A DNA stretch of 64,000 nt from the IMG/VR virus record IMGVR_UViG_3300026484_000087, positions 124,001-188,000 of that record; one strand, written 5' to 3'. Source of the stretch: a virus. Made by a program: the position numbers and the translations under genes. The notes under the pieces are model-generated. The model was not told the DNA's origin, did no database searches, and saw only the letters and a program-made list of their open reading frames with translations. Each line of letters opens with the position of its first letter. Positions within the stretch are counted from its first letter, which is position 1. Below are positions 10,673-16,858 of the stretch, piece by piece.

Positions 10673-11986
10673 ATGATGAACAAAACATTTAAAAGAATAA
10701 AATCAGTTAATGGTAACTATAACTTTAATCTATTAGCTTTACCAGATACAAAAGCATTTAAGATAGAAGTGGTTTTTGATTATGGAGCTAACCTAGAAAG
10801 ACATTACTATAATAAATATGGTAAAAAGGTTTATGGTATAAGTCATTTAACAGAACACTTGTGTTTTAAATCTCCAGTAGGATACAGTAGTGATGCATTA
10901 TTGGCTGAACTTAAGAAAAAAGGTAATCGTAATGCTAGTACAGGCAGTACACATATTAATTATTTCTTTAAATCTATAATGGAGAACATGGAGTTTGGTA
11001 TAGATGCTGTTGTTAAAATAGCATTTAATGATTTTAGTAGAATTACCGATGAGGAATTTGAATCTGAAAAGAATGTTGTTATTTCTGAGGTAGGTAGATA
11101 TTGGGATGATAAGCAAACTATGTTTTCTTTAAATACTAAGAATACTTTATTAGGGTTAGATAAAGATGATAATATTCTTGGTAGTGTGGATATACTTAAA
11201 GAAGTAACTCTTGATGACTGTAAAAAAATAAGAGCATTAACATTACAAGAAGCTAAAGTATGGTTTAATATTACTTATGATCCTTTAGAACATGTTGATG
11301 AAGATGATATAATTGAATGCATAGAAAGAACATTAGATGATATTAACTTAGTAAAGCAAGACGTTAATATAGGTAGATATGAATATTATAAACCCTTAAA
11401 ATTAATAAAAGAACCGTTAACTATCCCATCTGAAGCAGATAGAACTATTATAAATATGATATTTGAAACGGATACGAATATATTTGTTAGAGGATTAATA
11501 AACAATTATATAGCTAGTCTTGCCAATGAAACATCTTTATATAATATTATAAGAGATAAACATGGACTTACATATGGTGTAACCTTTGGTAAAGATGATA
11601 TAATGAATATTGATCACACCAGACTAATTGTTGATGTTGAACCAGATAAGGTAGATCTTACATTAGAACTTATAGAGGAATCTATAGTTAAGAGTACAGA
11701 GAAGTTTACCAGAGAAATATTTAATGATCTTTTAGACAATAGACATCTAATGACTACTATGACTAGATGCGATCCAAGAACTTATGAGTATCTTTACGGT
11801 GTTGAAATAGACCATGAAGAGTTACTTAAACCGTTTGATGATGTTTTGGAAGATAATATTTCATCAATAGATGAGATTTTAGATATGAAATATCTTACGT
11901 ATGAGGCAGCTAAAGAATATCTCGTGGATTTATCTAATATTATTATAGATAAAACATATTCTGTGGTTATGAGTGAGAAAAAATAA
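10673..11986 (+). CDS. M16-family zinc metallopeptidase (inverzincin)
   Basis: A 437-residue protein starting at one of two adjacent ATGs (10673 or 10676) behind AAGGATAGA. It has the inverted zinc motif HxxEH as SHLTEH (H58, E61, H62) and a distal glutamate E139 in VVISEVGRYW. The H62-E139 distance of 77 residues equals that of E. coli pitrilysin as I remember it. The C-terminal half has IIRDKHGLTYGVTFG, matching the R...Y substrate-binding pair of the second M16 domain. Length and layout fit a complete M16B-type single chain of two domains, so it should be active. It sits alone rightward between polymerase genes. Targets are unknown; phage precursor processing or attack on host proteins are both possible. 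Confidence 0.85.
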   Translation: MMNKTFKRIKSVNGNYNFNLLALPDTKAFKIEVVFDYGANLERHYYNKYGKKVYGISHLTEHLCFKSPVGYSSDALLAELKKKGNRNASTGSTHINYFFKSIMENMEFGIDAVVKIAFNDFSRITDEEFESEKNVVISEVGRYWDDKQTMFSLNTKNTLLGLDKDDNILGSVDILKEVTLDDCKKIRALTLQEAKVWFNITYDPLEHVDEDDIIECIERTLDDINLVKQDVNIGRYEYYKPLKLIKEPLTIPSEADRTIINMIFETDTNIFVRGLINNYIASLANETSLYNIIRDKHGLTYGVTFGKDDIMNIDHTRLIVDVEPDKVDLTLELIEESIVKSTEKFTREIFNDLLDNRHLMTTMTRCDPRTYEYLYGVEIDHEELLKPFDDVLEDNISSIDEILDMKYLTYEAAKEYLVDLSNIIIDKTYSVVMSEKK

Positions 11987-14559: not shown

Positions 14560-14579
14560 GTAAGGAAATTAATCCTTAC
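14560..14579 (-). terminator. Terminator after RNA polymerase beta'
   Basis: A 7-bp stem GTAAGGA/TCCTTAC overlaps the beta' stop codon. Read leftward it is followed by a T-rich stretch (CTTTCTATTTTTATTT), consistent with an intrinsic terminator. Confidence 0.6.
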
Positions 14580-16858
14580 CAACTTAATGTCTTTGTAACC
14601 ACATCAATAACTGTATTACTACATGAATATGTTAAGGTACCCTCTGGGGTTATATAGAAACTTCTTTTACCTAGAGCTTCATTTATTTCCTTTATAGATT
14701 CTTCTGTATATAAAACAGTATAACTACATTTATCTCCATCAACGTTGCCTTCACATAGGTCGTTACTCTATGCAGTTCTCTTATGAACTTCCCCAGCTTC
14801 CACTGGGAGACGAGACTATATCATGTTCTTCTGACACCATATCAGTAAGAACCAAACCACTTCGATTTAAGCACTAGGTACGTGCACCCACTTGGGCCCT
14901 ACTCCCCGCTACAGGATAGTCGTTGAACATTACCCATATTATATATATATATATAGTAACTTAGGGTCTTAGCTGCTAAAGGGAACCTTAGGTTCCACGG
15001 TTGCCTATTATACTATTATAGTGCTGATATTTATAAACGTTTAGTTGGTTACTCTAAACTGAAATATCGAGGCTATATTAATATTGATCACTTAAGATCA
15101 TCCATACAAGATACATTATTATATCCCAGTAGTTTTGCAACTACTCTTGTTAAACCGTCATAGACTAGTTTCCTGTCTATTGTGGTGGTACAGCTTTAAG
15201 GTTTTCCAGCAATTCAATTTGTTATTCGACATGCTTCTCAGCATGAAGGATCAATTTATTTTTTAACTTAAATTTAACAACATCTTTTGGCCTTTTCTAT
15301 AAAGGCGTTAGTTTTTGTTGTTTTTATTTTAAATCCTATTAGTTTATATGTATAATTAATATATGTTTACTATCTATTTCATCCTAATAGTACCAGTAAA
15401 AAAAAATTAATCTGCTCCTAATCTATCCAGTTTTGAAAAATGGGGACTTAAGGAATTGAAATATGCCTCCGTTAATATAGGATACTCATATACTTTATCT
15501 TCTTCCTCCCAATCAAAACCAAGGATACTAACTGTTCTGGCTTTAACTGTCGTTTTAAGATAAGGTATGCTTGGATATATACCACCTAAACCAGCAACGG
15601 GGTATCTAGTTAAGAAACCAGGATATTTTTTAACATCTTTATATATTGCTAGATATATAAGCTCAGCATATGTTATTGGTCTAAGGTATCTTTTATCTAC
15701 ATCGTCTGGTATATCTAAAGTATTCTTTATAAGTTTTACTTTTTTACCATCATCATAGATAAGGGCAAGATAATAACCCTCAACTTCTATAGGTTCAGAT
15801 CTAAGTTCATCTTGTGCTAATTTATTTATAACACTATTAAGACCTTCATCAGATGTCCACATATCCTTAGTTTTTGGTTTTATATCAACGTTAACAGTTG
15901 TTAAGGTTTTCTTATCAACTAATCTGGCAGTATTGCTATGGATATCAAATACGTCACCAAGTATCTTTAAATTTAATTGGTACTTAGTTATAGGGTTAAT
16001 AGCCTTAGAATATTGGTATAAACCTATAACGGTATTATTAAAAGATATTCTATTCTCACTGTTAGTTAAATCATGTATTACCGATGGTATTGGCGTAATT
16101 ACATTTCTAGTAGAATCTCTTATTGCCCTTTTAGTCCATTTGTTCTGTATGAACTTTTTCTTTCCATCCATCAAAGATATAAAATGATCATATATTTCAG
16201 TTATGATAGTTTGTATTCTAAATCTTATAGGATCTAATATCGTAGCATCATTAGATGATGTAGATATATTCTCAAGAGCATTTGTTGTAGTTAGTAGCTT
16301 TCTATAGATAGCGTTAACTTCATCTTCACTTGGTTTACCTGCATCATCTACTATATAATCTCTCAAACCAGCTGGAAGTACTAAAAATCTATCTATTAAA
16401 ATATCTTGACTTTTATATTTCTTAATAAGTTTAATTTTAAATTCCCTAGCATCACTATTTCTAGTTTCTAATTTAAGTTTATCATATTTAGACATAAAGA
16501 ATTCAAAACCTGTTTCACCGTCATTAGCATTTGAGAGAACAAAATCAGAACTTTTACTATCCCACTTGGCAAAAGCTTTGCCTGACATAATGTCTGAGTA
16601 TAGTTTTTTTAAGCTAGCTATATGTTTATATATTAAAGGGTGTAATACTTTTATATGTAAATTTACATAACCGAATCTTTTATTTCTTTCTTCACTTCCA
16701 ACTCTACCAAATATTTCAGTAGAGAATAATCCATCTGGATTGAAGTTTTTACTAGATGATTCGAAGATGCTAAGATCTTTAACTTCACCTATCATTTTTA
16801 TTTGGTCTCTATTAAGTATTAATAAATCTATATTAAAAGGTTCCATTTTTTCTAACAT
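14576..16858 (-). CDS. Virion RNA polymerase beta', N-terminal part (phiKZ gp180-like), split by a group I intron
   Basis: Two exons: 16858-15409 and 14742-14576, giving 538 residues. Exon 1 (start ATG 16858 behind AAAGGA) has the beta' opening GLFSTEIFGRVG and LHIKVLHPLIYKHI, and ends LDRLGAD. Exon 2 encodes 55 residues starting in the same motif. Joining after T15409 reads GADFDGDK, the universal DFDGD loop whose three aspartates hold the catalytic magnesium. Without splicing the protein stops one codon before the FDGD block. Position between polymerase beta and the lysozyme-bearing tail gene matches the phiKZ order gp178-gp180-gp181, so this is probably the virion enzyme. The C-terminal beta' part (gp80-like) is not in the window. 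Confidence 0.9.
14743..15408 (-). ncRNA. Group I self-splicing intron in the RNA polymerase beta' gene
   Basis: 666 nt. Read leftward it has the landmarks of phage IA-type introns: a P4-P5 region AATTGCTGGAAAACC with CTTAAAGC, the P7 strand GTTCAACGACTATC, GGGGAGTAGGGCCCAAGTG after it, the returning strand GATATAGTCTCGTC, and an end AACGACCTATGTGAAGGC. These resemble the T4 td intron closely. The last base is G (14743) and the upstream exon ends in U (15409). GATTT about 75 nt into the intron can pair with exon AGATT, placing a G opposite that U, and adjacent CTATTAG/CTAATAG extends the helix. No homing-endonuclease ORF lies inside. Confidence 0.93.

Follow-up and report, generated by a model that had tools for sequence, protein, structure and literature searches.

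The window, a 64,000-nt stretch of viral DNA (IMG/VR record IMGVR_UViG_3300026484_000087, positions 124,001 to 188,000), contains a virion RNA polymerase (vRNAP) β′ gene whose magnesium-binding codon block is divided by a 666-nt insert. On the evidence of the restored reading frame, a match to Rfam family RF00028, covariation and a sister intron at the identical position in another phage, this insert (14743–15408, minus strand) is very probably a group I self-splicing intron. It starts with AAUUUUUU and ends with GGCAACG. All gene and RNA elements described below lie on the minus strand unless stated otherwise.

The split gene and its predicted product

The ORF at 16858–15407 encodes 483 residues and ends with LDRLGAD, directly followed by a stop codon. 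Joining 16858–15409 to 14742–14576 gives a single open frame of 538 amino acids, translated as ...KLDRLGADFDGDKCSYTV...VTKTLSW before the stop codon. The exon junction in this frame reads GADFDGDKCSYTV, and GADFDGDK is intact, as a first-pass annotation of the window had proposed. That annotation gave the intron range correctly but wrote the junction as U15409|G14743, which is one base off; G14743 is the last base of the intron and the exons meet at U15409|U14742. Exon 1 (15409–16858) comprises 483 codons and one further base, which opens the Phe codon in ADFDGD. Exon 2 (14576–14742) supplies the rest of that codon and 55 more residues, DGDKCSYTV and onward to the stop codon. The DFDGD motif is split between the exons and restored only in the joined frame, in agreement with the earlier proposal that the catalytic loop requires splicing.

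Exon 1 matched phrog_2986 (E = 1e-166, profile positions 3–484 of 539) and showed 38% identity to phiKZ gp180 across the annotated length of the latter. The joined product can be aligned over residues 1–537 with relatives that have no intron, among them Phabio and PhiPA3 gp212. By these alignments it is assigned as a homologue of phiKZ gp180, the N-terminal β′ subunit of the vRNAP. A PDB sequence search with exon 1 returned nothing useful. Phage phiKZ Gp180 is a middle-gene product of which about 10 copies are packaged per virion (PMC10612078), and by analogy the window's β′ subunit is presumed to be packaged as well.

A second intact vRNAP β′ N-terminal gene, which the first-pass annotation had named as evidence that would count against its reading, was not found in the 206-kb contig. 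A non-virion β′ paralogue is present there and is uninterrupted. A search of the contig with PhiPA3 chimallin, run without a positive control, gave no match. Elsewhere in the window, an ORF on the plus strand at 10673–11986, opposite to its neighbors, resembles by eye an M16-type zinc peptidase (HLTEHLCFKSP...).

Structure of the intervening RNA

The insert has the ends of a group I intron, with U15409 preceding the 5′ splice site and G14743 closing the intervening RNA, and its fold has a z-score of −5.5 relative to dinucleotide shuffles. A covariance-model search, as the first-pass annotation had suggested, matched 14791–15274 to the full RF00028 model (1–253) with 34 bits and E = 1e-6. This match was obtained in a 1-kb search at a lax E-value, and its alignment has about 200 nt inserted at P5. 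The 206-kb contig has no other match of this kind. The Rfam scan of the whole window at the gathering score gave no match because 34 bits is under the 50-bit gathering score.

The predicted core helices could be assigned individually. The 5′ strand of P7, GACUAU (14916–14921), is paired with the 3′ strand AUAGUC (14814–14819) in 17 of the 18 family members with full P7. A P7.2-like hairpin, CCC-AAGU-GGG (14887–14896), follows, in which relatives show two-sided changes at each of the three pairs. The P9 hairpin (14791–14808) has two-sided changes in four of five counted pairs and also shows double changes between the window intron and that of its closest relative, L002 (described below). In P9.2 (14753–14773) five of six pairs have both bases exchanged in L002 with pairing kept, while P9.1 (14775–14788) is invariant in the family, an invariance that provides no covariation evidence. 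The P8 hairpin (14825–14853) was found by per-sequence folding in all 18 members and includes a U-A to C-G change between the window and L002; a fixed-column test of P8 was dropped, as the joining strand varies in length and the MAFFT alignment slips. A candidate internal guide (P1), GGUACU at 15389–15394, may form five pairs with the end of exon 1 around one bulged A. This pairing is weak, and the same arrangement of five pairs and one bulge is common to the window and L002 introns. No P10 pairing was identified.

A 3′-end scan of IMG/VR gave 22 stretches. Across the alignment of 18 family members, the 24 named pairs were formed in 97.5% of cells, and two-sided changes were seen in 12 of the 24 (P7, P7.2-like, P9, P9.1 and P9.2). 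When the partners were slid by 1–3 columns, only 28–46% of cells were paired and 0–3 pairs had two-sided changes. The slid control is the better guide here, the shuffle control ignoring relatedness. The Rfam score below the gathering cut-off and the bulged, five-pair P1 count against the reading as a self-splicing group I intron.

Loss of the endonuclease from the window intron

The sister intron is found in L002 (IMGVR_UViG_3300026484_000105), a metagenomic phage whose exon 1 is 79% and whose exon 2 is 68% identical to that of the window. It is inserted at exactly the same base, and the 3′ 553 nt of the two introns are 91% identical. Nevertheless, the L002 intron is 1999 nt long and retains an intact ORF of 482 amino acids of the DUF723 / phrog_559 endonuclease type; the compensatory changes in P9.2 are a second difference from the window intron. 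A PDB sequence search with this ORF returned nothing useful.

Alignment with the L002 ORF revealed a relic of the homing-endonuclease gene in the window intron at 15286–15327. It consists of the first 14 codons, with ATG changed to ATA, and ends at a deletion junction marked by CCAAA (15286–15290). The window sequence skips from the first of the two CCAAA repeats in L002 to the other, which removes 1343 nt, puts the endonuclease out of frame and leads to a stop. An intact endonuclease ORF, as a homing intron would have, is thus replaced in the window by an ATA start, a deletion and a frameshift; the deletion and the ATA start are read from one metagenomic assembly. As judged from this comparison, the window intron is a degenerate derivative of a mobile intron that has lost the endonuclease ORF and kept the ribozyme. 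Third codon positions in the exons are 57–61% identical between the two phages. The 91% identity of the introns may reflect stronger constraint on the RNA than on silent sites, or else later lateral movement of the intron.

The phiKZ gene 180

In GenBank, phiKZ gp180 (NC_004629) has 490 amino acids and ends with LGAD. The 1443 nt after it contain gp179; FDGD resumes beyond, and together with the last ~60 residues it is unannotated (L042:2347–5259). In phage KTN4 the same gene is uninterrupted and represents the empty allele. When the predicted phiKZ exons are joined (...GGGGGCGGAU/UUCGACGGGG...), they are 96% identical to KTN4 over 1650 nt with no break at the junction. The vRNAP β′ gene of the archetype phiKZ is therefore predicted to be intron-split, with an annotated protein that stops before the catalytic FDGD. 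The full-length insert is present in ten phage records, and the insert also occurs in U5, Wadjak 1/2, T2P and others.

The phiKZ and window inserts occupy the same gene, and both are group I RNAs by covariance-model score (90 bits in L036 for the former). The phiKZ insertion (AD|FDGD) is one base upstream of the window site, retains an HNH_3 endonuclease, unlike the window intron, and is not annotated as an intron in GenBank; sequence similarity between the two is confined to short patches. In a 2025 paper (PMC12571901), phiKZ gp179 appears solely as a homologue of the PhiPA3 endonuclease. In the open literature, with subscription papers outside the search, no paper was found that reports introns within the DFDGD block or phiKZ gene 180.

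Interruption of the DFDGD block across phages

Among 80 IMG/VR loci with the β′ gene, some of them on near-duplicate contigs, 11 are interrupted directly after AD of ADFDGD or the equivalent residues and 69 are not. KTN4 (L123) is outside this set; L089 and L091 were counted as uninterrupted, since they were flagged as broken by pattern but aligned through residue 537. By the reading of their junctions, most insertions are at two adjacent bases. The expectation of the first-pass annotation that the insertion site is conserved is supported. The first-pass annotation had missed how common introns at this site are, phiKZ included, as well as the endonuclease relic and the intact endonuclease of L002.

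Group I matches above the curated Rfam score were obtained for seven of the IMG/VR loci (L054, L058, L063, L065, L081, L086 and L096) and for L036, L038 and L005 of the phage collection, with sister-site introns scoring 52–91 bits. DUF723-type endonucleases are encoded in the introns of L002 and L045, and HNH_3-type endonucleases in those of L096, Vibrio phage 2 TSL-2019 and the phiKZ group. The introns of L054, L058, L065, L081 and L086, at 350–590 nt, are too small for a full-size endonuclease. Taken together, these comparisons show that group I introns have entered the catalytic codons of RNA polymerases in giant phages again and again.

Proposed mechanism and alternative explanations

In the proposed mechanism, the intron separates the first base from the other two bases of the Phe codon in the metal-binding motif ADFDGD. 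With the chemistry assumed from the family, splicing would begin with the attack of a P7-bound guanosine on the transcript just behind U15409; in the second step, the U released in this way would attack behind G14743 and link the exons into a message for the 538-residue protein. The ancestor is proposed to have been a mobile intron with a DUF723-type homing-endonuclease ORF, as still seen in L002. The 1343-nt deletion between the two CCAAA repeats would have removed this ORF, and the intron should therefore no longer move alone. The core would remain under selection because splicing is required for the catalytic loop. Moreover, the occupied site should immunize the gene against a rival endonuclease of the same specificity. 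A wider proposal, which we put forward only tentatively as a minority possibility, is that the DFDGD motif of virion and non-virion polymerases is a homing hot spot in conflicts between phages, with endonuclease-free introns persisting as site protection.

The same sequence could in principle belong to a broken gene, in a defective phage or assembly, whose insert no longer splices, and the weak P1 and the Rfam score under the curated cut-off would fit this. Nevertheless, both exons and all of the core helices are conserved, and compensatory changes separate the window from L002. Exon 2 keeps its frame although it has no start codon of its own, and the contig offers no second copy of the gene, so a broken gene is highly improbable. 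A genuinely split subunit, in which a β′ polypeptide ending in LGAD would work with a separate short DGDK... peptide and no RNA splicing, has a precedent in that giant-phage RNA polymerases are already built of split subunits (PMC7598289), and the annotated end of phiKZ gp180 at LGAD could be taken the same way. However, the exon boundary falls inside the Phe codon, no start codon precedes DGD in exon 2, and the protein is continuous in relatives that lack the intron. The known natural split, moreover, lies after the double-psi barrel, downstream of the intron site (PMC7598289). We consider this arrangement hardly credible.

The first-pass annotation had instead assumed splicing and seen in it a special gate on the packaged enzyme. 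In such a scheme, splicing efficiency would set the dose of active virion polymerase, and unspliced message would yield a catalytically dead β′ ending in LGAD. Retention of the core after loss of the endonuclease, and the several other endonuclease-free introns at the same site, are compatible with a regulatory role. Nevertheless, an intron without its endonuclease is expected to persist anyway, because a working enzyme is left only by exact removal, whereas an imprecise deletion would ruin the active site. An intron is missing from most relatives, and neither a sensor nor an alternative fold was found. The subunit is produced like any virion protein, and nothing points to regulation; a gate is very unlikely. 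As had been stressed, splicing must take place in the previous infection, but the same holds for the synthesis of every virion protein, so there is nothing special in it. An endonuclease-free group I intron that is still spliced therefore remains the preferred reading of the window.

Introns in other phage RNA polymerase genes

Group I introns are already known from RNA polymerase genes of giant phages. The window intron adds to these and has a clear history of endonuclease loss; it has been caught after this loss, with a sister still carrying the endonuclease. A close described case is the group I intron with gp210 in the vRNAP β gene gp211/209 of PhiPA3, whose endonuclease gp210 was shown to act on the empty site of a rival, phiKZ gp178 (Birkholz et al. 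2024, PMC11620839). Like the window intron, it lies in strictly conserved codons of a giant-phage vRNAP gene. In contrast, it concerns the β subunit, encodes an HNH endonuclease and has been tested in the laboratory, whereas the window intron lies in the β′ magnesium-binding motif and has lost a DUF723-type ORF. An intron is also reported in the non-virion polymerase region of PhiPA3 (PMC10449902).

The intron of Vibrio phage vB_pir03 (L005) occupies the same D|FDGD site and is 89% identical to the window intron in its last 76 nt, but it lies in the non-virion β′ paralogue (phrog_2987). In GenBank, g189 of AR9 is in six pieces, an intron in it is mentioned in the literature (PMC5312081), and record notes for Staphylococcus phages Madawaska and MarsHill predict exon junctions in the vRNAP β′ gene. 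As in the window, these vRNAP genes have introns and endonuclease ORFs, here annotated in GenBank. Nevertheless, AR9 g189 is a different subunit and the Madawaska and MarsHill insertions are at other bases, exon 1 of Madawaska reading through ADFDG.

With phiKZ gene 180 among the invaded catalytic blocks, annotation, cloning and knock-down of β′ subunits must allow for introns. The pair phiKZ/KTN4 provides natural filled and empty alleles at the neighboring base, where homing is directly testable.

Several further arrangements were observed. At L063:5428–6330 (IMGVR_UViG_3300046328_000321), a 6-nt micro-exon, TTCGAT, encoding Phe-Asp of DFDGD apparently lies between two group I introns in tandem, which score 76.5 and 63.9 bits in Rfam (GCTGAT|intron 1|TTCGAT|intron 2|GGTGAC); both insertion points are occupied singly in other phages. 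In Elvirus IR-QUMS-PaBa1-GHS-2021 (L040:5449–7300) a gp180-like gene is broken at another base of the motif, behind DHD in DHDGD, by an insert that scores under the Rfam gathering cut-off and has an HNH_3 endonuclease ORF. Serratia phage KpGz_1 (L006:4001–4082) has a related intron 3′ end followed by ADFDGDALGG, which suggests that another RNA polymerase β′ gene has an insertion immediately upstream of the motif. In addition, several IMG/VR contigs among L011–L032 (e.g. 3300035497_000279 and 3300035498_000371) look intron-rich, carrying at least three close relatives of the window intron in different genes; one of these relatives precedes a YPSII motif typical of DNA polymerase.
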